DNA of 64,000 nt from Pisolithus tinctorius (Eukaryota > Basidiomycota > Agaricomycetes > Boletales > Pisolithaceae). The notes beneath the pieces are model-generated. The model was given only the letters and a program-made list of their open reading frames with translations, was not told the origin of the DNA and ran no database searches. Position 1 is the stretch's first letter; every line of letters begins with the position of its first letter. Below, piece by piece: positions 9,674-58,312 of this stretch. The DNA is taken from NCBI GenBank assembly GCA_024663395.1, contig JANFAH010000002.1:4588001-4652000 (forward strand), read 5' to 3'. The translations under genes and the position numbers were made by a program.

Positions 9674-10769
9674 CTAAAAAATAGAATTTATCAGGTCACT
9701 TCCAATCGCCGCACCTGAAAATGGGTTCCCAATCAGTTACTCCGAGTTTACACGGCAACGAGATAGATGGCGTGACTTCTTACCAGCGCCGAAACCAAGC
9801 CCTCCCGCAGCGGATTGTGCCATCTGAACTATACATGAGTGATGGGATCACGCGCGTTGGTTCCGATACGTACGGTCGTGCCAAGATTGCCAAACCTTCC
9901 CTGCTTGGATGGTTGCTGGGGTGCGGGTTGGAGTGGCTCCGTGGGAGGATAGTAAGGGGGTCCATATTGATGCGGCGGTCCCGGTGATGGGCCATAATGC
10001 TGTAGTGGGCCAGGTGGTGGCCCATAATGCTGTGGTGGCCCTGGGGGTGGGCCATATGGCTGCGATGGCGGTGGTCCGGGAGGTGGAAGATACGGCGGAC
10101 CAGGAGACGCTGGGTGTTTCTGCGACGGCACAGGAGAAACAGTATATCTTTGTACCGGCCCAGTTCTCGAAGACGATGTATCCGACTTGGGCGTGCCCGA
10201 GAAGGGTGGGGGAGACGCTTTCTCGCTGAATGATCTGAGCTTCTCCACATACGCAGCGGGGAAGAGCCCTTGCTTTCCAGCCCGATTGCGACCAGTCCAC
10301 CAATCTTCATTTGTCTCGTTGATGATTTCTATGATCTCACCAGCACGGAAATTCAGATCGCTAGGATCCTAGAAAGATGTGTGTGTGTGTATGTGTCATA
10401 ATGGTAAGGCGATATCGACCCCTTACCTCGCTCGTCCAATCCCACAAAGTCCTAGCCTCGACCTTCGCCTGGTTCTTGCTGGACGATAGGCTCAGGTTCG
10501 ATGCTTTCTGTGTCAGGGCTGTTATGGAGGTGTTGGGCGGAGATCCAGCACGAGAAAGGATCGCCAAGATGTCCCGGCCATCGTCCCGTGGAATCTGGTT
10601 GTGAGTAATGAGCAACTCGATGTTCTGTCGTGTCTGGGAGATAATGTGAGCGAATGCGGGCGATGGCTCTGGCATCTCTTCGATACTCGCTGTAACTAGT
10701 AAATGGTCCGAGCTCAAGTAGCACCGTCACACGGGCGGAGCGGCAAGTAGGACTACTGATCTTGGACAT
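9674..10769 (-). CDS. SH3-domain protein of the Lsb1/Pin3 type with proline-rich tail
   Basis: Likely actin-patch or Las17/WASP-binding adaptor by family analogy. Exons on the minus strand: 10769-10733, 10689-10427, 10368-9870, 9828-9784 and 9714-9674, together 885 nt, 294 residues. After an N-terminal helical module (SQTRQNIELLITHNQIP, GRDILAIL) comes an SH3 domain beginning ARTLWDWTSE and DPSDLNFRAGEIIEI, with NEDWWTGRN and GLFPAAYVEKL. The tail has repeated GPPPGPPQHYGPP motifs and ends MAQSAAGGLGFGAGAAIG, the glycine-rich terminus typical of this family. The first exon and start are less certain than the rest. A (GT)n tract lies in the intron 10369-10426. Degenerate and rearranged relatives occur at 11153-11667 and 40676-42099. 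Confidence 0.85.
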
Positions 10770-11152: not shown

Positions 11153-11667
11153 TTAATCATCGCCATGAAAGATTTTCTTCACATACACAGGGGGAAAACC
11201 CCCCTCCTTCCCAGCTCGGTTGCGACCAAACCACCAATATTCTTCTGCCTCGCTAGTGATCTCTATGATCTCACCGGCACGGAAGCTCAGGTCGTCTGGA
11301 CCCTAGAAAAACGCGCAGGTATCACGACAATGAGACGATTTCATTGGCTCGTGTCATAAACCTTACCTCGCCCCCCCAACTGTCCAAAGTCACAGCCTGG
11401 ACCCCCGTCATGGGAGGTGGCGATATCCTCGGGTGAGAAGCTTCCTGTGTTAACTCTGGGTTGGATGTGTCGGACAGAAACTCGGAATCAGAAAGCTCCG
11501 CCAAGATGTCCTGATCATCGTCCGAAGATGGCTCGGGCATCCTTTTCATAGGCAACTGCCATTATTGTGAGTGCACGAGCCATGCGGCGGTCATGAACAC
11601 GATATACCTTTACACGCGGTGCTGTACCGCCGGTAGACTTACGAGCGACTTGTATGAGCTTAGGCAT
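11153..11667 (-). CDS. Histone H3-tail-like exon joined to a small SH3 protein (copy 1)
   Basis: Function unknown. Minus-strand exons 11667-11608, 11555-11367 and 11302-11153 give 399 nt, 132 residues, all GT-AG and in phase. Exon 1 is 60 nt and encodes a degraded histone H3 N-terminus (VARKSTGGTAPRVK is the clearest part). Exon 2 is an acidic linker (SDDDQDILAELSDSEFLSD) ending DSWGGE. Exon 3 encodes most of an SH3 domain (DDLSFRAGEIIEI, EEYWWFGRNRAGKEGGFPPV). The partner at 41385-42099 has identical exon phases and a 150-nt last exon ending at the same point. The Lsb1-type helical module is absent here. It may be a decaying paralogue: the H3 part has lost K4. The alternative is an unspliced H3 fragment unrelated to the SH3 frame. 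Confidence 0.6.
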
Positions 11668-12696: not shown

Positions 12697-14255
12697 TGTC
12701 ATGACCGTGCCCAGACCACCCCAGACCGGCTCTATCCCAGTCTTGACTGGTCCTGTCCAACCCTTGCCCCGGTGTAGGGAACTGTATACTCCCTGAGGCT
12801 GGAACACAAATCTGTCACTAAATTCCACAAGCCTCTACGTCAAACCTGTTTCGGAATTGTTCCGCTTGTGTCTCCATGTTTCCTCCCCACCCCTGTCACC
12901 TTCAGAGTTTCTACCGACCTTCCACATGTTGCTCAGTCATCAAAACGCTGATCTGGAAATTCCACATTCACACAGAGTCATCCGGAATTCAGTAGCCGTG
13001 CCACTGCTCAGCCACATCACCAGTCGTCCGTGCCACTTACCTCTAAAAACTCCGGATTCCCCTGTCGCCCTAAATTCCGCAAGCTGGACTTCGTGCCAGT
13101 ACGCTATGCTCTGCCCTCCTGCGCCACTCAGCTCCACCTCCCACTTGTATGCATACTCTTGTTCTGTTGGAAGATACCCCTTACCATTGTCCCATTCTTA
13201 CTCTTGTGTACTACCCACCGGACTATTTCACGTGCATCCGTATTTTGCTGATGTCTGATGTCCTGCCCTTTATTTTCTGGTCTTTTAGTTTTTCCACCCC
13301 ACCTTACTCCGACTCATACCTACTTTCCCTGTACTATATAATTCCGCCATAGTGTCGGAAATATACCACCCACCTTTGGAGTCGCTATCTGTGTGTGTTC
13401 TGCGAGTTCGAGAGTTTCTAGAGTCTAAGTGCGTATATAGAGTCTACAGCATCTTCAGTGTCCCCAGAGGTCTTTGTGTCTCCTGCGTCCTCCAGCTTTG
13501 TGCACCTAATCCCGTGTCCCTTTCGCTTCAAATTCGCTCCTCTTGACGCGTAGCAACCTCTTGGAATTTTGTATACCCATCCCGCTGTTCCCCACACGTC
13601 TACATCTGCCCAGAATTAAATCCCACGGCTCTCGCTCGAAATTCCCCACTGCTTCTAAGCCCTTTCTCAACTTCTCCTTCCACACAGCACCCCCTGGGAC
13701 GATCCTAGGGAATTCTCCCTTCACCCTTCCTCTAGTTGCACGCTTCCCAGAAGTCGTGTTCCACACTGGTCCCAGCCTTGACCCTTCGACCCAGAAACGT
13801 GTTAGCTCGTGAGGCACTGCAAGGCAGTGTCCAGTCGAGTTGTCCCCTCAGTTGGTACTGGGCCAGTGTAACACCCAGCCCAGCCACATGTCCTGCCCCA
13901 GTTCCCGGTAATCCCTTGTTCATAGTCCTTGCTTGATAAGATTCTTTGTAACACTACTTACCAATCATCGCTGTACCGGTGCAGACCGGTCTCCGGTGCT
14001 ACATTACACTTAGGTTACTTCTAGTATTTAAGCTGTAGGATATTCTGTTTAGCCTCAGTCTGAAATCAAACTAGTTCTCGTCTTAACCCGGTCTCTCTCG
14101 TCCTCTGTCTTCTGTCTCTCGACCGGACTACGGCCCACGCAAGGGAATAGCGCTGCGCCCTCAGTCGCTAAGTCCAATAGTCCAAACCCCTTGATATCTC
14201 GTATTACCCTCTAACCCCCAACTGGCCTTGGACCGGTGAAGACCTGGACTTAACA
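12697..14255 (+). repeat. 5' LTR of the chromovirus
   Basis: Starts TGTCATGACCGTGCCC and ends GACCTGGACTTAACA. Without the nested solo LTR at 12773-13765 and its 4-base duplication it is about 562 bases, close to the right LTR without its own insertion (about 574). Confidence 0.88.
12773..13765. mobile_element. Solo LTR nested in the 5' LTR
   Basis: 993 bases starting TGTAGGGAAC and ending GTGTTCCACA, a TG...CA element. It is absent from the matching point of the right LTR (CTTGCCCCAGTCC). Flanks are CCGG and CTGG, a likely 4-base target duplication with one change. No coding sequence is evident. Confidence 0.75.
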
Positions 14256-14308
14256 GTATTTCAGACTCACACTTGTGTGGGTCAACACCCTTCTGCTCAT
14301 CCCTCGGC

Positions 14309-20783: not shown

Positions 20784-22158
20784 TGTCATGACCGTGCCCA
20801 GACCACCCCAGACTGTCATGACCATGACACCAGCGTAAGCCCCTAACACCTACTCTGCCCTCTTCCAACATGTTCCCGCGCTTCTCCGCCCTCCTCCGAC
20901 GTGTTCCCGCACTCCTCCGACCCTCCCGACACATCTCCACACCTCTCCGAGGTCCCCCGTCCATGTTCTGACCAACTCCGCTCAACTCCACCCTAAGGTT
21001 GGTCACGTGGGCTGTCGGACTTGCAGCCCTGCATTCTAGATAGGGTTCCGCCCTCGTGTCGGTTTTCTCCATTCTTCCGCTCCTTTGGTATTTACCCTCT
21101 CTTCCTTGTTGTAGCAGTTTCCTTGTCTCAGTTAAGGTCCCCATCATCCCTACCCTCTATCCCTTGTGTCAGAAGGACTCTAACCCACTATACACTTATT
21201 GGTTTACATTCCATACTGCACCACCCTTGACCTACATCGTATATAAGGCCATGTAGTACTCCGATGTAATCAGTACGAATATCGAATAAAGTCCCCACCT
21301 TTGACTCCCTCTCAGTCCCCTCCGGAGTTTCGTCTCCACTTCCTCTGAGTCCGCTCCACCTCTGAAATACGAGGGCTGAGCTCACGCAAGGGGGCAGTGC
21401 ACTAGCTGAACCCAATGCCCTCTCATCCAACCTCCGACCTCTGACCTCAGCCTCCAAAACTTCCCTTCATACCCCTCCGCCCACTGTTCATTGAATATCT
21501 CGCCACCCAGTGGTCGGATTCGCTTCGGACTTTGACCGCTGTACTCCGCAGCCCAACCCGCTCCAACTCCGCCCTAAGAAGGAGCCAGGGGTGTTGTCCG
21601 ACTTTGACACAGACCAGCTCTATCCTGGTCTCAACCGGTCCTGTCCAACCCTTGCCCCAGTCCTGGCCTTGACCCTTCGACCCAGAAATGTGTTAGCTCA
21701 CGAGGCACTGCAAGGCAGTGTCCAGTTGAGTTGTCCCCTCAGTTGGTACCGGGCCAGTGTAACACCCGGCCCAGCCACATGTCCTGCCCCGGTTCCCGGT
21801 AATCCCTTGTTCATAGTCCTTGCTTGATAAGATTCTTTGTAACACTACTTACCAATCATCGCTGTACTGGTGCAGACCGGTCTCTGGTGCTACGTTACAC
21901 TTAGGTTACTTCTAGTATTTAAGCTGTAGGATATTCTGTTTAGCCTCAGTCTGAAATCAAACTAGTTCTTGTCTTAACCTGGTCTCTCTCATCCTCTGTC
22001 TTCTGTCTCTCAACCGGACTACAGCCCATGCAAGGGAATAGCACTGCACCCTCAGTCGCTAAGTCCAATAGTCCAAACCCCTTGATATCTCGTATTACCC
22101 TCTAACCCCTGACCAGACTCCAGACTGGCCTTGGACTGGTGAAGACCTGGACTTAACA
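20784..22158 (+). repeat. 3' LTR of the chromovirus
   Basis: Begins TGTCATGACCGTGCCC right after the polypurine tract and ends CTTAACA. It contains the solo LTR at 20814-21609. The shared part matches the left LTR with scattered transitions. Confidence 0.9.
20814..21609. mobile_element. Solo LTR nested in the 3' LTR
   Basis: 796 bases, TGTCATGACCATGACACC to GACTTTGACA, flanked on both sides by the 5-base duplication CAGAC (20809-20813 and 21610-21614). It starts like its host LTR but diverges at once. It has a TATATAAGG box near 21239 and an AATAAA at 21286, as expected of an LTR promoter and polyadenylation region. The left LTR has no insertion at this point. Confidence 0.88.
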
Positions 22159-22910
22159 GCGCGACTGGCTCCCATGCTTTCTGTCCTGGGGTATTAAACC
22201 CCACACTCACTGCGACCACTGATAGTAACTTTACGGTCTCTGTCCCCCCCAACCCTATGACGACTACTGACAGTACCACCTCCATCCCATCCATCCCCCC
22301 CTCCACTGCCACATTCAGCGGAAAGTGCTCATTCACTGTGATGTCTACTGATATCACAGAAACGGCATCCCCTTCCCTCCTATTCTCAAGAAATCAGCAT
22401 CCCCCAACGACTCCTGTCTTGTCCATTCATAGTAGTAAGCGCAGCTGAACGTCCACTCAATCTTCCAGCAAGATGCAGCCTCAACCTTCCAGCTCTCACA
22501 CCGTCACAGTCATGTCAATCGGTAACATGACCCGGCACTTGGGGGACCAGCTGGCGACGACTTTCATGGATCCATTGATCACGGTCCAGATGGCTATGCA
22601 AATGCTATACAAAGATTCCGAGATCCCTCCCCACCATCATGCATTTATGACGCATCAGTTTTCTGGCATATCTAACCCTGCTGCTGTTTTTATAGCTTTA
22701 CCTGATGAACAATCCCGTCGCGCGTATGTAGCAGATATGTACGATAGCTTTTTCCAAGGCGCTAGCAATGCCCCCCCTACCATGTAGTATGTGTAGCACG
22801 AGTCAGTGTATTGTAGCTACAGAAATGAACTATCAAATGTGTTGGCATCCCTCCAGCATGTGCATCGAACAAAAGTCAGATTAGATTTTACTAGTACATG
22901 ATGGATGTAG

Positions 22911-40307: not shown

Positions 40308-40640
40308 CCAATAACCGGCACTGCAGGAATGAGGTCGCTCGTCACAATTCAAACACTCATCTTGTGCTGAACCACAGATTGCCCTAGCATATACTCTTTC
40401 ACTCTGTAGCGTGACTAACTAATCACTATCCTTTTTTTACCAATAGTCTTCGACGTTGCGCGCAGAATTGTCATGGGTAATGCGGAATCAACCAACGTTT
40501 TCGGGTGTGGACGGTCTGATCCCGCATGGTGTGAGGGAGTGCAGGTGTTAGTATTCGATTACAGGGCTCCTCCGTTATCCCGTTGACGTTTCATACTCAC
40601 ACTGTTGACTGGCGCAGCATGAGGTAAAGTGTGGCGCGCG
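40308..40640. repeat. Direct repeat, partner 42232-42575
   Basis: Two diverged copies about 1.92 kb apart in the same orientation, sharing for example GTCGCTCG...ACAATTCA and TAGTCTTCGACG plus CGTTGACRTTT. They bracket the SH3 fragment and the H3-tail/SH3 gene. Confidence 0.7.
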
Positions 40641-40675
40641 CGCGCGTATCATGATGATGAGGCGACATTAACTCC

Positions 40676-40950
40676 TTACCTCGCTCATCCACTCCCACAA
40701 AGCCCTAGCCTCGACTTTTGCCTGGCCCTTGCTGAACGATAGGCTCAGCTGCGATGCTTTCTTTGTCAGGTTCGTGATGGACCTGCTGGGTGGAGACTCA
40801 GCACGGGAGAGGATCGTTAAGATGTCCCGGCCGTCGTCCTGCGGAATCTGGTTGTGAGTGATGAGCAACTCGATATTATAATGTGAGCGAATGCAGGCGA
40901 TGGCTGGAGGATCTCTTCGATAGTCGCTGCAACTAGTAGACAGCTCGGGC
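40676..40950 (-). pseudogene. Fragment of the Lsb1/Pin3-type SH3 gene
   Basis: Matches exon 2 of the gene at 9674-10769 (IELLITHNQIPQDDGRDILT, ALWEWMSE) up to the splice donor, but no SH3-coding exon follows. A deletion removes the SQTRQN part of the helical module. It lies directly downstream, on the same strand, of copy 2 of the H3-tail/SH3 gene, mirroring the order at 10.4-11.7 kb. Confidence 0.8.
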
Positions 40951-41384
40951 TCAAGTAGTACTGTCACACGAGAGCGTTCGGTTTAGGAGCGACAGGCATA
41001 GGATAAGCAATCCTAGGCATGCAGACCTCTCATTTTGCGCTGAACTATATATATCATCAGGAACGGAATCTACAACCAGACGCTACATATCATGAAGTCC
41101 CTCATTAACATATGAAATAATAAAACATTCGAAATCATGGAAATACTGATCTTGACGAGGCAGGCATAGTGATTCAGGTGGCCCATCATGGCACGACGAA
41201 TCGCGGTGGTAGGCCATATGGATAGGGTGGTAGTGGTGGGCCAGGAGACCGAGTATGAATATCCGGGGGAACAGGAGACGAGCATTTCTGCAACGTCGCA
41301 GGAGAGGTATATCTTTGAACTGGACTGGTGTCCGCAGACGATGTACCCAGCTTGCTGGGAGTGTCTAGGAGAGACAGCGGGATC

Positions 41385-42099
41385 TTAATCGTCGTCGTCA
41401 AAGACCTTCTTCACATACACAGGGGGGAAACCCCCCTCCTTCCCAGCTTGGTTGCGACCAATCCACCAATATTCTTCTGCTTCGCTGACGATCTCTATGA
41501 CCTCACCAGCACGGAAGCTCAAGTCACTGGGATCCTAGAAAAACACGCGGTAATCATGACAATGAGACAGTTCCATTGGCTCGTTCCATAAACCTTACCT
41601 CGCTCCTCCAACTGTCCAAAGTCACAGCCTGGACCCCTGTCGTGAGAGGTGGCGAAATACTCAGGTCCGAAGCTTTCTGTGTCAGGTCTGTGACGGATGT
41701 GCTGGACAAAGACCCAGCATGAGAAAGCCTCGCCAAGATGTCCCTGCCATGAACCCGTGGGATCTGGTCGTAAGCGATGAGCAACTCGACATTCTGTCGC
41801 GTCTGGGAGATGATGTGAGCGGACGTGCTGGACGTCGGGGACCTAGCACCGAGCTTCGCCAAGATGTCCCTGCCTTCGTCCTGTGGGATTTGATTGTAAG
41901 CAATGAGGTGCTCAATGTTTTGTTGTGTCTGGGAAAAGATGTGATTGAACTGAGATGGCTCGGGAGTCTCTTCGACAATAACAAACTATAATTACGCCGT
42001 GAGCGCGCGGACCATGCGACGACCGCGAACACGAAGTACCTGTTTACGTGGCGCCGTGCCGCCGGTAGTCTTACGAGCAGTTTGCTTGGTGCGGGGCAT
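41385..42099 (-). CDS. Histone H3-tail exon fused to duplicated helical module and SH3 domain (copy 2)
   Basis: Function unknown. Minus-strand exons 42099-42040, 41967-41599 and 41534-41385 give 579 nt, 192 residues, all GT-AG and in phase. Exon 1 encodes PRTKQTARKTTGGTAPRKQ after Met, an almost exact H3 tail: Ala1 is Pro, Ser10 is Thr and Lys14 is Thr, while Lys4, Lys9 and Lys18 are kept. Exon 2 has two tandem copies of the Lsb1-type helical module (FSQTQQNIEHLIAYNQIP and ISQTRQNVELLIAYDQIP, each followed by GRDILA). Exon 3 is SH3-like (DPSDLSFRAGEVIEI, EEYWWIGRN, GGFPPVYVKK) and ends in acidic Asp residues. Homology to the parental proline-rich tail continues downstream in another frame (TSPVQRYTSP), so the protein was probably truncated. 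The alternative is that exon 1 is a stray H3 fragment. Confidence 0.68.
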
Positions 42100-42231
42100 C
42101 TCCTATGGAAGTCGTTTGGAATGTGTCCGTCGATTGGTCACTCGAGTACGGGTGGTGCTCTCTTGTCACGTGACAGTAAGTACCCTGCTATTTGCAGACT
42201 CTGGCATACTGCCGATACTCTGAATCCATCC

Positions 42232-42575
42232 TTGCACCGGCACGAGTGAAGTCGCTCGGTTACAATTCAGACACTCGTCTTGTGTTGGATTGCGGATCAG
42301 GCGATCATTGCCCAAGCGCGTACTCTTTCATTTTGTCGCGTAGCTAACCAACAACTGTCCCTTTGACCATCGTTTATTGTCTAGTCTTCGACGAGTCCGT
42401 GCAGAATTATTATGGGTGATGTTGGATTAATCAACGCTTTTAGGTGCGGACGGTTTCAACTTGCATGGTGTGAGAAGGCGTACAGATGTCAATATTTGAT
42501 ACAGGGTCCTTCCATCACCCCGTTGACATTTAATAGTACGCCTTGCCAATACTAGCGCAGAAGGTAAAGTGATGG
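42232..42575. repeat. Direct repeat, partner 40308-40640
   Basis: Second copy of the 330-base direct repeat, on the 5' side of the H3-tail/SH3 gene. Confidence 0.7.
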
Positions 42576-43435
42576 CTTTACGCGACGAATTCGTAAGGCC
42601 ACACGACCCCCGAAACTAACGGAAAACCGCAAGCTATCCTCACCGGCAACGCACCTCCAACCCGTAACATTTGACGCCATCTTCCCGGCGGACGCAGACT
42701 AATCTTGCACGGGCAACGGCGGGGTGATTATGTATGGTGCAGATCGGCGATATGTAAGCCACCAATTCTGTGTAGTCTCGGGTCTTTTTGACTCTCCTAA
42801 GCCGTACTTATGCCGTGCGCGCGCGCCCCCAGAGTGGGATGGGCTGACGGGGTGGAATGCTACTGCTGAATAAGAGGGCCTGCGGAGGTGCTCCGATTGT
42901 TGACTGTGAGAATGGAGGGGTACAGGGTGCAATTCCGTTCACACCAGGTGCGACCTGTGGCTGTCACGATGGACCACTGTCCTGCTGTGCTTGAGCGCCA
43001 CTTCGGATACATCTGTTTGCCGTTCTCATCAGGCTAATATCACTTAATTCGGAAGGGGTACACATACTGGTTTCGCCTGTACCATATCATATCTCGTTGA
43101 AAGTGTTGATGCTCACCGCGGATGCTTATCTGCAGTGGGCTGCTTGGATTATTCACGTGCGGGATGCCACGTGGCAGGAGGGACGGGAGGAGCGTGGGAA
43201 GAAGGAGTGCTGACTGAGAAGGCTTTCTAATGCGATCTTAGCCGTGGGTCAGAAGCGTAAATGGGACTTGGACATCGCTCAGCATCAGCTCCCCTCTGAC
43301 CAACCACCCCTCCTGCTTGTACTACCCCCCACCCGGAAGCCCTCCGCTAGTACACTACCCCCCGCAGGTGTCTGACACCCTTCTTAAACGCCAGTCTCTG
43401 TCAGCGGTCCCGTTACCCAAAATCATTCCACCACC
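42576..43435. other. Intergenic region upstream of the DsbA-like gene
   Basis: About 860 bases without a supported gene. It presumably includes the promoter of the oxidoreductase; a pyrimidine-rich run (43290-43375) precedes its start. Confidence 0.45.
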
Positions 43436-44452
43436 ATGTCCGATCCAGCCCTCTCTCAGGGCGTCCAACGCGTATTGAAAATAATCGTTATATCTGACTA
43501 TGTACGTCTTTCACATCCTTCATTCTGCCGATCATATTCATGTCAACCTTGATCACTCTGCCACCACAGATATGTGCCTTCTGCTATATCGGTAACAAGG
43601 TCCTCTACGACGCCATCGAGGCATGCAGGGACCTCCCCGTCCGCTTCGACGTCGAGTTCAGACCATTCGCATTACTCTGTCCAACATCCCCAAATGTCGA
43701 CAGGAAACCTTCCCGGAAGGAATATCTCTTCAAGAAGTTCGGCCAGGAGCAGGCAGAAGCAAAGTTGAAAGTGGTCTACGAGATGGCACAGAAAGCAGGC
43801 CTCAAATTGTGCGTTTATCACACCCCCACACACCCCATCCAACTACTTACGTTCTCCCCTTTTGATTCGGCATCAGAGCCGAAGACGGCGTAGTATGTAG
43901 GCCAAACTTGGCACACAGACTCGCCGTAAAAGCATACCATGTTGGCGGACAAGATATGCAACGGGAATTCAACGATATCATCTTTAAAGCGGCATTCGCA
44001 GACGGAAGAGACATCAGCGATCCCGATTTCCTAGTCGACACAGCTGTGCAAGTCGGCCTCATGAACAGAGAAAAGGTACCTCGCTATCCATCTCGCTAAG
44101 CAACCACCCCTCTCAGTACCCATCTCAGGCCTCAGAGTTCCTGAGGTCGACAGAGTGTCAGGACTGCGTAGACAAGATGATCGATGCTGCCAAAGCAAAT
44201 GACGTGAAAGGCGTGCCATTCATCATCATCGACGGGAAGTGGGCGTTGAACGGCGTTCAACCCAAAGAATGCTACATCCAGGCTAGTCTGCCGTTTCAGC
44301 CCCTTGAATGTTCCTTTACACGTTCTCAACGTCAATCGCAGATCTTCCGCAAATTGGCACTACCACCCGAGCCCCTGACACCAGTGGGAACACCACGATC
44401 GTGCAGCGACTGCAGACCCCCGGTCAACTCGCCCCCTCTTCCCGTACAATGA
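43436..44452 (+). CDS. DsbA-family thioredoxin-fold oxidoreductase (FrnE-like)
   Basis: Thiol-disulfide oxidoreductase or HCCA-isomerase-like protein of the DSBA family; no signal peptide, so probably cytosolic. Exons 43436-43501, 43570-43808, 43877-44075, 44129-44281 and 44342-44452 give 768 nt, 255 residues. The active site CAFCYIGNK (CxxC) sits after the first strand, as in FrnE, at about residues 24-32. Helical insert NDIIFKAAFADGRDISDPDF and the cis-proline loop DVKGVPFIIIDGKWALNGVQ are typical. The fourth intron starts GCTAGT rather than GT, a GC-AG intron needed to keep the last exon in frame. A second CxxC (CQDC) lies in the C-terminal half. It stands alone, flanked by gene-poor DNA. 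Confidence 0.88.
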
Positions 44453-47400
44453 CTTCCTTCCTGCCGTGCCTCCTTGTCTTTCTCCTGTTTGCTTAGCATA
44501 TTTTCCCTCGCATCTCGCCCTCGTCTCCTCGTACTTACCTCCGGGAACGCGCCCAAACCTGTTTCGGCCTCATGGTTTCCACATCTTTCATTATGGCTTA
44601 GTGTTTTTTTTGCCATAACGTCAGAAGGTGCGATAATCACGAGGCCGTCGCTCTAACGGCGTCCCATTTTGCGGATTACGGTTGTCTCTTTCGACCTCGA
44701 CATCACACTGGTATGTTTGTCATCTCAGCTGCCAAGCAAAGTAGTAGGTTTCTTTTCCCTCCTTTTGTATATATTCATTTTTTTCTTCTGCTATGGATTT
44801 CAGCTGTCCATAAGTCATACCTGTGAGCGTGAGCGGCGCCACTGAGGCACTACCTGACTAAGTGTGTGTGTTTACAAATAGAACAGACGTGATAGGGCAT
44901 GTCATTCTTGCCATATGCGACAGTGGCGGAACGGGAACAGTGCTAAAACCATACACACTATCGCGGGGACGCTCCAATTAATCGGTACAACGACTTCTGT
45001 CCATCTTCGCCACCGAACAGCAGAATGGAACGTGATTATTGTTCGCGGCGGTGACTATTGAAACGTCTACCATGATGACCAACATATCGTTGATCAATCG
45101 ATCGTTTCGAAGGGTCATAGCCGCTGGGCGAGACGATCAGTCTGGATTGCAGTGAACGCTCGAGCTTTTCTGATGATGGGAGTCTTGATACGGGAACACT
45201 CCTACTACCTCGTATCTCTGTGCTCCCTCTTCAAAACCGTACCAACACGAAAATAGCCTGGCAGCTTCAAAATCGAGCGCCTCAGTGAGACTTGACGACT
45301 TCGACGGGCGATACTACGGTGTTCCTCGACGGTAACTAAGCTCGGATCTTGGAAAACCTGGGTGGTTTAAACAGTTGCCATCGAGGGGGGCAGGCATTGA
45401 TGGTTCTCCCTAAATACACATAAAGAATCAGCATTTCCAAAGGCTCGCTCCATCTCGCGACTTTCGGTCACTAGGCTCTGAAGCACATTTTGGGTCCTGC
45501 GGACTTGAGCGCCCTTTATTATTATTATTATTTCCTGCTTTGAGTGCTAGGAGGGAGGACGCACTTCCCGCCCCTGGTTAGAGACAACCATCACTGGCAC
45601 TGCGGGATTAGGCAAAACGGTTGACGAGCCCTAGCTAACATGCGGCTCACCAAGACGAACTGGCAACATCGATGCTACATACATATTTGCTTACCAATGA
45701 GAAGAGAAGAGCGCTTTGCCGCGATATTGCCTCGTCATAACGACCGAGCAGCGCCATCCACACGCAACCAAAAGAGAAAACATACCACCGAAGTGTCCCC
45801 CCCTCCTCCTCCTGTATGATAACTTGCACTTGGGATACCTTGACTGACCCGTGCGTCTACGACCGCTCGGTTGGTGTGCTCTTCGATCGTTTTTTTACTC
45901 GACATTTGCCCACCCCGACGATACCGAATATGTACACCGCAACCCGCGGGAAACGGACCAGAAACTTTCCGCGCCATTCAAGGCCCTACGATTACCCGGG
46001 AGTCAGTCAGCCTATCCCCGAGCTTTAAAAATAAAATGCGTTCAGACCTTGGTCGTTACACTTTATCCAGACACTTTTCCGGGCCCGCCAGCCCTCTAGA
46101 GATCTGAGACATTAATCGCTCGACGAGTATCCACCAGCACGACGCTCGTTCACAGATTCCAAAGTGACGATCTAAGCAACCGGCCTGGGACTCAGGTGGG
46201 TCACCACCCTGGGCTCCAGGAGAGTAGGTGTGGAGTAGGTGTGCGTAGTACCTGCTACTCGTTCCTGCAGGGATGTAGCACAGTGCTCCACTGAACGTCT
46301 ACATCTAAGCAACCGGCCCGGGTCACCGCTCTGGGCTTCAGGAAGGTAAGGTGTGGAGTAGGTGTGCGTAGTACCTGCCATTCGTTCCTGCAGGCATGTA
46401 GCATAGTGCTTCACTGAATGTTACCATTAGCCCGCCACCGATCAGCGCCACCATTAACGCACAGGGAGCACGGTGTGCTTGAGCCTTCCCAGATACTGTG
46501 GCCGCAAGCTACACTTCGAACATGTCGGTCGTGTCTTGAAATGCTCTGAATGTGCGTAGATTGGGGCAGTAGTTCCTGGTCAAGTTGCTGCTCAACCTCA
46601 CGCGTCAAAAGCAAGAAATGGCTGTCACTGGACAGTGATTAGTGAAGCCCAAATCCAATTTCAAACTTGTCAAACTAAAGGACCCAATTGAACAGAAGGC
46701 GATCCATGATCTTGAACATTCATCGCCATATACGTTTCATGTCACTGTAAGGGGGAAACCTTCCATGTATGTTTCCCAAGAAATCGTGACCCTTCGGGGC
46801 CACACAACGTTGTTTCGTGCAGGCACTACTTTACGCCCAAGAGTAATCATTAATGTAAGACACCTCGTAGGGTCGACTTCTAGCAAACCAGGGAAGCCAG
46901 CCGAAAAAAATGTCTGAACTACTTAAGTACTCGTTCTTCCCTGTCATTAGCAACTCGTCGCTCGGTGGGGTATACGCCGAACGATAAGTGAATAAACAGG
47001 GATCAAGCATGTCACAGAAGAGATGTCTTGTTCCTATATGCAGGTAACAGCCACGCTGCTACCAGTGATCTGGAGCTGTTTTAGCGTCTTGCGCAGCCAT
47101 CATCACCTGCATGTTCTGGCACACAGGAAACGCAAGCAGTCTTGCAAGAGGCTGATAGGAACTCACCACTCTTCTTGTGAGAGAAGGGAAGGACTTGCTC
47201 CACTGGAACGGATTACCCAGTTAGTACTGAAGGTGACCACCTCGTTTAAGGTCAAACCTCCTAACCCAAGGCGTTCCTACCAATCGAGTGAGAGATAGAA
47301 ATCCATGTTATACATTGTCATGTTCAGAGAGAATGAAGAAAAAATAGACATGGCAGTTCCCCATTGCACACAACCCACGCAGCATGCACAACGTGAGGTA

Positions 47401-50305: not shown

Positions 50306-50935
50306 GTGATAGTGATGGCTGTGATTGTGGTTGTGGTTGTGTGCGGATAGCGATGGAGAAGGGAGACTGGGGGGAAGAGGGGGAGTGTGGAGGAGAGGAC
50401 GTCCCAGGCCCTGTCCTGTCCGGAGAGGAAGAAAATAAAATGTCAAAAGCAAAAACAAAGACAGCCAGTAGTAGAATATTTACGATAGCGGACTTTGAAT
50501 TGCCTTGTTCGTACACGTTTCCGTTAGTGTAGTGGCTACGGTATGTAATCCACGTACAGTACAGTACAGATCGTCCCCAGCCTCAGCACAGACAACCGGT
50601 AGGTAGGGCACAGTACCACGCTGGACGACTGCCCTCCGCGTTGCTAGGGACGCTCGGTAAGTCCTGCGTACCGCGCGTCGCAGTGGCAGAGCGCCGTTGA
50701 AGAAGACGCGTGACCGATGCAGGCACTACTAATATCCGATCAAACACGACCACTGACATTACGCCAGCCTGGTGTCAAACTTCTAGCAGCCTTCTGCAGG
50801 AGCGGGCTCCGTTGTCCAGCCTAATAGGATGAGAAGCAACGGTTGCATCCGAAACTTATCAATCAAACAAAGTAGGAGCGGAGCACCCATACTTACGTAT
50901 GTAGGTACATACCTCGCCGACCTTTTTCAAGACTC
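50306..50935. other. Intergenic region 5' of casein kinase I
   Basis: Holds the likely kinase promoter and leader: a pyrimidine-rich tract on the minus strand near 50340-50440. From about 50840 sequence similar to 57020 begins, the edge of the NTF2-like duplication. No gene supported. Confidence 0.45.
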
Positions 50936-52060
50936 TAACACAACAATCTGATACACATTCGCTACCGTGGGCCAAACTCCCTTCGCCCCCACTTCCCTCC
51001 ACTGCAACATAACTGTATGCACAACCGTGGCCGTCGGCATAACAATTCGGCACACCACAAACCCAGCTGGGGGCCGACGTAAAGCATGTCGTAGCACACG
51101 TGTCTCATCTCGCCAGCACTAGTACACACGGTCTTAAGTTCGGAAGGGGGTATGGCATAGTGCAACGAGGGAAGGGCGACGAGCTTAGTAATAACCTCCA
51201 GTCGACCGCGCTTGAGTGCAGAACACCCAGCTACACACGTTCATACCAATCACCAGCCACTGCACGGAAGAGGAACACTACTCACATATGTCATCAACGG
51301 ACGCCCGGGAAGTCGAAGCGAGCGTCTGAGCCCGAACGAGAGGTCTGCTTGTGCTTATGGTAAGCAAAGGGTGCGAGGCGTGAATATGCTGAGCCAAGAC
51401 TAGCACACAACTTCGTACTTTTGAATATAGCTACCAGATACCAGGAGAGAAGTACTCGGGCACATCAGCTTTATGTAGCACAGGGCTACCCATAGCCCAA
51501 GGACTTACCGTCGAATATAATCCAAAGATGTTTCTGACACCTCTCGGTCTGAAGCAGAAGCATACTTAGCGGTCACGACTGGTTCCCGGGGAACACGATG
51601 ACTATGACTCGTTCGTGTACCATCAGGTATGGTTGAGGGCCCTGGATCGGTAGTTGATGAAGAAAATACAGGAGCTGAGGATCTCTTGCGCTTGGATGGG
51701 AATGAACATCGAGATCGTCACTGCACGCCAGTGATTGTGGACGTTGTGACGGGCCGTGAGTTGGAGCGGACTTGGTTAGCAGTGACGAATGCCCACTTGT
51801 TTGTGCAGAAAAAGCCCGATTGATTGAAGACACTCTTGGTCTAGTAGAACTTGTCAAACCTGGTGTTGAAGTGCTAGGCAAGAGCTAGGAGACCAACAAC
51901 GATGACATGTGGCTGCCAGCTCTTTTACTGGGTGAAGTGTCAACCGAGCTGTGTGGAATGACTGGTGGTCTGGGCAAGTGAGATTTGGGGGATGGATGTT
52001 TCCCCGGTGTACGAAGACGTGCTTGGGTAACTGCAGAAGCAAGATCACACACGTTAGGTT
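50936..52060 (-). pseudogene. Broken copy of the NTF2-like gene
   Basis: Same strand and order as the intact gene at 57129-58312. Recognisable parts are LKPNVCDLASAVTQ (start ATG changed to TTG), TSPSKRAGSHMSS, SAPTHGPSQRPQS and the AIPPSELKTVCTSAGEMRHV block. Exon 2 reads YIQKYEVVC and then hits a TAG, where the intact copy has YIQTYEADRASLAS. Frameshifts separate the exon 1 parts. So the copy cannot make the full protein. Confidence 0.85.
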
Positions 52061-56330: not shown

Positions 56331-57128
56331 TCCCAGCCAATACACATACAAGTGATAACTGCAACAGCGAAGTCAGACTTGTGTAGGACATGGGAGTGGA
56401 ATACATGTACCTGTTCCGATCACTCCAATAAAGTAACCTGCCTAAAGTCAGCACACCTCTGGCATTAAGTAAATACACGAGCAGTACCGTGCGAAAACAG
56501 GACTGTACCACGGCTGATGAGTCAGGTGAAACTTACTGTTAGTTTCAAGCACAGGCAATAAAACGAACCAAAACCTTACGTGAGTCGCAGGAGGAACCGT
56601 AGAATTGAGCGTTGCTTATTTGTTAATACAATCATTTTCAAGGAAATTGATGAGTGTGTGACTGAAGCTTGTGGGTTGAAAGCAAGGGGCATAGGCAAGT
56701 CAACGCTCCTTATCATATAATAGGAGCCGCGAGAGGTTGGGATGTGACTCAGCACCGCCTTATGTAATAGTCCTATAGATTCGGTCAAGTTGCGGATTTG
56801 AGCACGAACATTTGACCAACTTCTGCGAACCATTCACGTCTTACCGTGTGTAATGTCCACTGACAGCAGTGAGCAGCCTTCCAATTGTGATGCCGCTACA
56901 ATTCCCGTCTCCGATACTGTAAAGTTACAACAGATCTTGGAATCTACGAAGCATTGGAATGCACTTCCCAGCCAGTAGTCAAGCAGCGGCTTCCAACAAT
57001 TCGCATTTCTGGTGGAACGATGGCTCGTAGATGAGAAGCTATTATTGCATCCGAAAACTTCACATACACATCAATCAAACAAAGCAGGAGTGTGACATCG
57101 ATACTTACGTATGTACCTCGTCGACCTT
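56331..57128. other. Intergenic region
   Basis: About 800 bases with no supported gene. The first part is likely the 5' region of the transporter. From about 57020 the sequence is shared with 50840 onward, the common end of the NTF2-like duplication. Confidence 0.4.
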
Positions 57129-58312
57129 TCAAGACTCAAACACAACAATTTGATGCACATTCGCTACGACCGGCCAAACGCCCTTCGCCCCCGCCTCCTC
57201 TTTATCCACCTCCTTCCGCTGCAACATGAATGTATGCACAACCGTGGCCGCCGGCATAGCAACTCGGCACACCATAAACACACCCAGCTGAGGGCCGAGG
57301 TAGAGCATGTCGTAGCCCACGTGTCTCCTCTCACCGGCACTAGTACGCGCGCGCTTAAGCTCGGAAGGGGGAATGGCGCAATGTAGCGAGGGAAGGGCAA
57401 CGAGCTCAGTAATAACATCCAGTCGACCGCGTTTAAGTGGGGAGCCCCCAGCTGCACACGTTCATACCAATAAACTTGCCACCGTACGGAAAAGGAACGG
57501 CACCACTCACATATGTCACCAATGGGCGCCTTGGAAGTCGAAGCGATGGTCTGGGCCGAATGAGACGTCTGCTTATGCTTACGGTAACCAAATGTTGCAA
57601 GGCGTGAATATGCAGACGCAAGACTAGCGCGGTCGGCTTCGTACGTTTGAATGTAACTACAAGACACCAAGAGAGAAGTACCCAGGCACATCAGTTTTGT
57701 GCGGTACAGCACTACCCGTTGTCCAAGGACTTACCGTCGAATATAATTCAGAGACATTTCTGACACCTCGCGGTCCACAGCAGATGTATAGTCAGCAGGC
57801 ACGACGAGTTCCTGTAGAACACGATGATTATGTACGGTTGAGGGCCCTGGATCAGTGGTTGATGAAGAAAACACAGAAGGAGCCGGGGATCTCTTGCGCT
57901 TAGACGGGAATGAGCCATCGAGATCATCACTACGCGTGGGTGATCGCGGACGTTGTGGCGGGCCGTGAGTTGGGGTAGACTTGGTCGGCCCATTTGTTTG
58001 TGTGGAGAAAGTCCGACAGATCGAAGACGGTCTTGGTGGGACGGGAAGCTTTTCTCTAGGACTATTTTTGACATCCGACTTTGTCGAATCAGGCATAGAG
58101 AGACCAAGCAAGAGACGAGGGATCGATGACGATGACATACGGTTGCCATCTCTTTTACTGGGTGAAGTGTCAATCGAGTTATGTGGAATTGCTGGTGGTC
58201 TGGTCAAGTGAGAACTGAGGGACGGATGTTTCCCTGTGCGAGGTCGTGCTCGGGCATTTGCTTCGTACGTCTGGGTGATCGCAGAAGCCAGATCATATGT
58301 GTTAGGTTTCAT
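57129..58312 (-). CDS. NTF2-like domain protein (Mex67-like C-terminal fold suspected)
   Basis: Minus-strand exons 58312-57735, 57656-57511 and 57451-57129 give 1047 nt, 348 residues, GT-AG and in phase. The first 190 residues are Ser/Pro/Arg rich and probably disordered (SPSKRDGNRMSSSS; basic PSKRKRSP, a possible nuclear signal). The rest resembles an NTF2 fold: YIQTYEADRASLASAYSRLATF as the first helix, then RLDVITELVALPSLH, GVFMVCRVAMPAATVVHTF, MLQRKEV and GVWPVVANVHQIVV. The pattern recalls Mex67/NXF mRNA-export NTF2 domains, but leucine-rich repeats and UBA domain are absent, so the function is not assigned. A broken copy lies at 50936-52060 and a fragment at 38975-39185. Confidence 0.7.

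Follow-up and report, generated by a model that had tools for sequence, protein, structure and literature searches.

A histone H3 tail exon joined to an SH3 adaptor gene across the fungal genus Pisolithus, with a possible role for the tail as a short linear ligand

Most known cases of histone-tail mimicry are short motifs, carried by viral proteins and by a few regulators. The SNAG motifs of SNAI1 and GFI1 are short H3 mimics on zinc-finger factors, with no shown descent from H3. Fungal SH3 adaptors of the type that presumably goes by the names Lsb1 and Lsb2 (Pin3) in yeast consist of a helical module and then an SH3 domain, followed by a proline-rich part and a C-terminal end. Here we describe a gene of the tree-root fungus Pisolithus tinctorius, found in a stretch of 64,000 nucleotides (the window), that joins an H3 tail to an adaptor of this type. 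Like the SNAG proteins, its product places an H3 mimic at the N terminus of a non-histone protein; unlike them, it carries the H3 exon itself. Compared with the adaptors, the fusion shares the helical module followed by SH3, but it adds the H3 tail, doubles the module and loses the proline-rich part and the C-terminal end. A literature search, which covered titles and the starts of abstracts and had preprints and most subscription journals outside its scope, returned no report of an H3-tail/SH3 fusion. A sequence-only reading of the locus had likewise known of no such gene; that statement needs widening within Pisolithus, where an unrelated family of finger proteins, described below, also bears H3-like tails.

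The features of the locus and of that second family are collected in Table 1; the fusion gene is copy D. Joined together, its three exons form an open frame of 198 residues, and the translated protein lies 1 residue (K18 to N, in H3 numbering) from P0001, the annotated 198-residue protein of P. orientalis. Exon 1 translates to MPRTKQTARKTTGGTAPRKQ and is followed by a GT donor at 42039. The sequence-only reading had placed the first intron at 41968-42039 and arrived at a product of 192 residues. Its donor stands, but the acceptor is most likely the AG ending at 41986, because P0001 matches that choice, which gives FVIVEETPEPS at the junction; an acceptor at 41968 would also remain in frame but would lose six codons. 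At the same junction, the other fusion proteins read LV(V/I)EE (P0002, P0004 and P0005), LAAGK (P0003) and LPMKR (P0006). We infer the splicing of D from such gene models.

Table 1. Features of the copies in the window (window coordinates) and loci of the finger family
Feature	Position	Strand	Description
Copy A	9871..10675, CDS continuing below 9871	-	Intact unfused parent-type gene P0013, 274 aa
Copy B	11156..11667	-	Fused paralogue P0006, 132 aa; degraded tail MPKLIQVARKSTGGTAPRVK; former SH3 start Met retained
Copy C	40646..40970	-	Degenerate SH3-type paralogue; SH3 part unrecognisable
Relict of the parent's proline-rich C-terminal part	41203..41384	-	Out of frame, 3' of the D stop
Exon 3 of copy D	41385..41534	-	Most of the SH3 domain; DDDD; stop codon ending at 41385
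Intron 2 of copy D	41535..41598	-	
Exon 2 of copy D	41599..41985	-	6 parent-leader codons (FVIVEE), former start codon ACT, doubled helical module, linker
Intron 1 of copy D	41986..42039	-	Most likely acceptor AG ends at 41986
Exon 1 of copy D	42040..42099	-	Met and 19-residue H3 tail, with Pro1 and Thr14
Leader of copy D	42100..42127	-	28 bases resembling the H3 gene leader, by DNA similarity
Finger-family loci	L043, L044, L045, L046, L051; L047/L056 (C2:1031117); L052/L057 (C14); L058 (C3)		The first five are of MVKTKQ type

That the first exon encodes an H3 tail was borne out. Searched against the PDB, the tail matched H3 peptides (best E 8.3e-07), and a degenerate H3-start pattern hit it with 0 mismatches, as the sole match at up to 3 mismatches where chance would give 0.10. 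The claim that no H3 core follows also held: the spliced frame of D contains no histone-fold core, and Pfam searches of P0001 (E up to 1) returned SH3 families and no histone. The in-phase joining to an Lsb1-type helical module and SH3 domain agrees with the gene layout, with the SH3 match of P0001 (PF00018, E 2.7e-10) and with the N-terminal helical module, which aligns with P0007-P0012 and occurs twice. The D protein stops after DDDD and is without the proline-rich region and the GFGAGAAIGS..IF end.

The canonical H3 gene of this genome, on contigs C41 and C47, reads ARTKQTARKTTGGKAPRKQ and then LATKAARK; an intron interrupts it after Q19, exactly where the fusion has its first intron. D and this gene share a single block of 129 bases, 82% alike, that begins 28 bases ahead of the ATG, spans exon 1 and ends within intron 1; 53 of 60 exon 1 bases and 33 of 41 intron 1 bases are identical. 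The H3 N-terminal tail ARTKQTARKSTGGKAPRKQ is present in D, whose tail has 17 of 19 residues in common with the genome's own H3, A1P and K14T being the sole differences. The fusion differs from canonical H3 further in having an SH3 protein, not a histone fold, behind its tail. A third change proposed earlier, Ser10 to Thr, falls away: all H3 tails read in the genome (C41, C47, two on C39, C3 and C31) have Thr10 (..RKTTGG). Among the fusions, position 10 is Thr in D, copy E and P. orientalis and Ser in the other four fusion proteins. The shared intron points to capture of the H3 5' end at the DNA level and not to convergence. From these sequence comparisons, we regard it as almost certain that the fusion arose when a duplicated SH3 gene captured the 5' end of an H3 gene.

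The SH3 partner has five copies on contig C2, between 4.598 and 4.722 Mb: A is unfused, B fused, C degenerate, D fused, and E fused and broken, with stops and with its frame lost between ATG and tail. D is a truncated duplicate of the neighbouring intact SH3 gene. Copy A, about 31 kb from D in the window, has the leader CTAGTTACAGCGAGTATCGAAGAG immediately 5' of ATGCCAGAG. In D, the bases matching this leader are now translated and the former ATG is ACT; in B, the former SH3 start codon is still ATG (KRMPEPS). The matching leader and the old ATG site indicate that the H3 piece was inserted immediately before the codon at which the parent gene starts, and the ACT of D implies that the H3 ATG initiates the full-length protein. 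We conclude from the sequence that a DNA-level duplication carried the 5' end of H3 to a duplicated Lsb1/Pin3-like SH3 gene and set it right in front of that gene's start codon. The piece comprised at least 28 leader bases, exon 1 in full, the splice donor and 41 intron 1 bases. The H3 exon would then be spliced in frame, by way of five or six former leader codons, to an acceptor that lies within the old SH3 leader or close to it. The exon shuffling suspected in the sequence-only reading is upheld in this form, by DNA similarity of the exon with its donor and part of the intron. Upstream of the ATG, no alignment to the H3 promoter beyond about -60 is clearly better than shuffles, and capture of the H3 promoter was dropped on this ground.

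DNA searches of the 92.5 Mb assembly found neither D nor the flank 43200-45200 anywhere else. Upstream of the fusion, window positions 42240-42535 are 70% like 40323-40595, which lies downstream of the degenerate copy C; the likeness would fit an older tandem unit that extended beyond the genes. Other repeats within the window pair 21660-22159 with 13769-14256 (93%) and 57030-58254 with 50828-52027 (75%). Could the window locus be a recent pseudogene or an unspliced relict, and the models of the other species predictions only? The broken paralogue E and an assembly with no second copy of the locus would agree with this, but D is open across three exons and almost identical to the P. orientalis protein, and we consider such a reading very unlikely.

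Relatives were gathered as 121 distinct proteins (P0001-P0121), from 12 matches in one search and 120 of 129 in another; they were clustered at 90% identity, which may conceal more species, and the lists contained no Scleroderma protein. The H3-tail pattern occurs in 6 of the 121, those of P. orientalis, P. sp. B1, P. marmoratus, P. albus, P. thermaeus and copy B of P. tinctorius. It is absent from the other 115 among the matches listed, which include unfused proteins of P. albus, P. marmoratus, P. tinctorius and P. thermaeus as well as proteins of Astraeus, Paxillus and Suillus. The fusion is thus found in six Pisolithus species, P. tinctorius and five others. P. tinctorius and P. orientalis are reported to be the most basal sequenced Pisolithus, nearest Scleroderma (PMC10066745). 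The fusion lies on both sides of that basal split, and on this placement the event predates the deepest split among the sampled Pisolithus species. We conclude that a true, old and genus-wide fusion, and its origin, are well supported by sequence.

Is the tail peptide itself constrained? Five species were compared through P0001-P0005 (D, nearly identical to P0001, and the paralogue P0006 were left out). Over tail residues 2-20, mean pairwise identity was 0.837 and 13 of 19 residues were invariant, compared with 0.565 (3 of 32) in the linker and 0.550 (0 of 7) in the translated leader. The two helical modules gave 0.797 (22 of 38) and 0.789 (19 of 37), and SH3 gave 0.692 (23 of 52). In Fisher tests that ignore the tree, invariance was higher in the tail than in the linker (2e-05), the leader (0.0052) or all remaining residues (0.027), but the tail was not more conserved than the modules (0.57 and 0.26) or SH3 (0.11). 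All five species agree throughout K4-K9 and T11-G13, while residues 2, 3, 10, 14, 18 and 19 vary, R2 being Pro in three of the five. Base changes were also compared with neutral simulation, in tests that ignore the tree and have just the 57 bases of exon 1 after the ATG to work with: D and E differ at 10 bases and 3 residues, a residue count so low in 0.9-1.7% of runs (P 0.009-0.017), and D and H3 differ at 7 bases and 2 residues (P 0.020-0.036). Copy B has gone another way; 9 of its 19 tail residues differ from the genome's own H3 (dN 0.448, dS 0.691), and about half of the tail is lost. Gene conversion from H3 may have contributed to the conservation but is disfavoured as its sole cause, because D and all six listed fusion proteins retain Pro1. 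Taken together, the comparisons suggest that the tail is probably under coding constraint. The earlier suggestion of a neutral product is disfavoured to the same effect: five more species carry the fusion and the tail is better conserved than the linker, yet the tails of B and E have decayed.

The H3 piece might instead have been kept just for its leader, start codon and donor once the old ATG was lost, with a peptide that does little. The ACT at D's former start codon, the decay in B and E and a tail conservation no higher than that of the folded parts all speak for it. However, an invariant core within the tail beside adjoining leader codons that have none, residue changes fewer than in neutral simulation and an H3 promoter likeness that ends by about -60 argue the other way, and we judge this account rather unlikely. 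Nor does the charge of the tail seem to explain its conservation. A basic, disordered N terminus without acidic residues might act as a generic, putative nuclear or mitochondrial targeting signal, its H3 likeness being a matter of origin only, but the stretches K4-K9 and T11-G13 are kept while K14 and K18 vary, a pattern more specific than charge alone, and we give such a signal only a small chance.

In an AlphaFold2 model of P0001, built from 34 sequences, confidence is low for residues 1-30 (block means 54, 49 and 45; pLDDT below 50 at 17-29); helices are predicted at 31-49, 55-67, 72-91 and 97-112, the SH3 domain is confident and pTM is 0.38. A tail predicted to be disordered fits a linear ligand and, equally, a passenger. 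The gene product would be a short SH3 adaptor whose N terminus is a disordered H3 tail. The span from K4 to K9 and from T11 to G13 is the part of H3 used by readers and writers of H3K4 and H3K9, and Pro1 should alter or block readers that require Ala1. We propose that the tail may be retained as a short linear ligand, recognised by binders or modifiers of the K4-K9 region of H3, and that these proteins would be brought to, or held with, whatever the SH3 domain binds. On the sequence evidence, a tail that is a ligand for H3 readers or writers is a fair conjecture, short of probable. The decoy for such proteins put forward in the sequence-only reading likewise stays conjectural. The reading as a whole, in which an old exon-shuffling fusion has kept its tail as a putative short linear ligand, plausibly for H3-tail binders, we hold tentatively, at a little under an even chance. 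We infer the translation, binding and location of the fusion protein. The fusion in six species suggests, without proving, a role for the tail outside chromatin.

The SNAG proteins offer a more particular ligand. D, P. orientalis (P0001) and P. marmoratus (P0003), half of the six species, begin MPR, and a Met-Pro-Arg start could make the tail a pseudo-substrate of LSD1; the proline of the GFI1 SNAG domain (P2A) is reported to be required for LSD1 binding (PMC5896174). However, P. albus, P. sp. B1 and P. thermaeus (P0002, P0004 and P0005) begin MPP, and P0006 begins MPK. A genome search for LSD1 (SWIRM plus amine oxidase) did not find one, although intron-split exons could conceal it; the two SWIRM domains found appear by eye Swi3/Rsc8-like and Ada2-like, and neither adjoins an amine-oxidase match. 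Hence, LSD1 mimicry is highly improbable in our estimate. The genome has 45 amine-oxidase matches, many of them clustered on contigs C12, C18, C25 and C75.

The second family emerged when the genome was searched with H3: of 66 matches (E up to 1), 40 look, judging from their coordinates and frame lengths, like one ORF type of 73-80 codons. Four of the 40 and one shorter copy start with MVKTKQTAKKTTGGRAPR; single loci read MARTKQTAKKVTGGHAPR and MARTRQNAKKTTSGTAPR, the latter type also at a second place. A model from one locus returned 109 proteins (P0122-P0230), 105 of them from Pisolithus, one from Suillus ampliporus and one from Cytidiella melzeri. At least 10 of 20 H3-tail matches, starting within the first 60 residues, were counted in 53 of the 109, and at least 8 matches beginning at residue 2 in 35; as controls, 2180 shuffles of the first 80 residues reached at most 9 and the 115 unfused SH3 relatives at most 7. 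A profile of 53 of the 109, a different 53 from the tail-bearing set, matches PDB H3 at 1.7e-08. The tail-bearing 53 keep K4 in all and K9 in 51; over 1359/1378 pairs, their identity is 0.72 in the tail (inflated by the tail-based choice), 0.38 in residues 21-45 and 0.52 in the later part. Behind the tail lies a Cys-rich finger with a weak match to the DNMT3 ADD PHD finger (E up to 0.1 in 7 of 53 members, best 0.0011); that of P0123 is below the Pfam cut-off. An alpha/beta part follows the finger (model mean pLDDT 66). Docking of the tail on the P0123 finger is unsupported, model residues 1-47 having pLDDT below 50. A sequence of at least 7.4 kb, matching at about 93-96% in its largest pieces and containing long internal tandem repeats, is common to L053 (480-7894), L054 and L059; part of the family thus sits in dispersed repeats.

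Like the SH3 fusion, these proteins have an H3-like tail at or near the N terminus with K4 and K9 kept. They differ in their ADD/PHD-like finger and alpha/beta domain, their many copies and, in the copies read, a reading past Q19 without the H3-type intron. An origin of the fusion's tail from this family is rejected: leader, exon and intron of the fusion all resemble those of the H3 gene, and the finger copies read continue past Q19; the family's origin is separate. Its existence makes off-chromatin use of the H3 tail in Pisolithus more plausible. A broader and speculative idea, to which we assign a low probability, is that the H3 tail was recruited at least twice in the genus, by SH3 exon shuffling and in a partly mobile finger family, both serving as off-chromatin decoys through which readers and writers of H3K4/K9 would be loaded, masked or recycled; one use might be to dampen the silencing that acts on the mobile family.

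In Pisolithus, an adaptor has acquired the H3 tail exon itself, together with part of the adjoining intron, and the resulting fusion occurs across the genus. The natural series of intact, altered and decayed tails would allow the residues that matter in a tail off the nucleosome to be tested. Together with the finger family, it would also allow a test of whether the H3 tail has become a reusable module in a single fungal genus.
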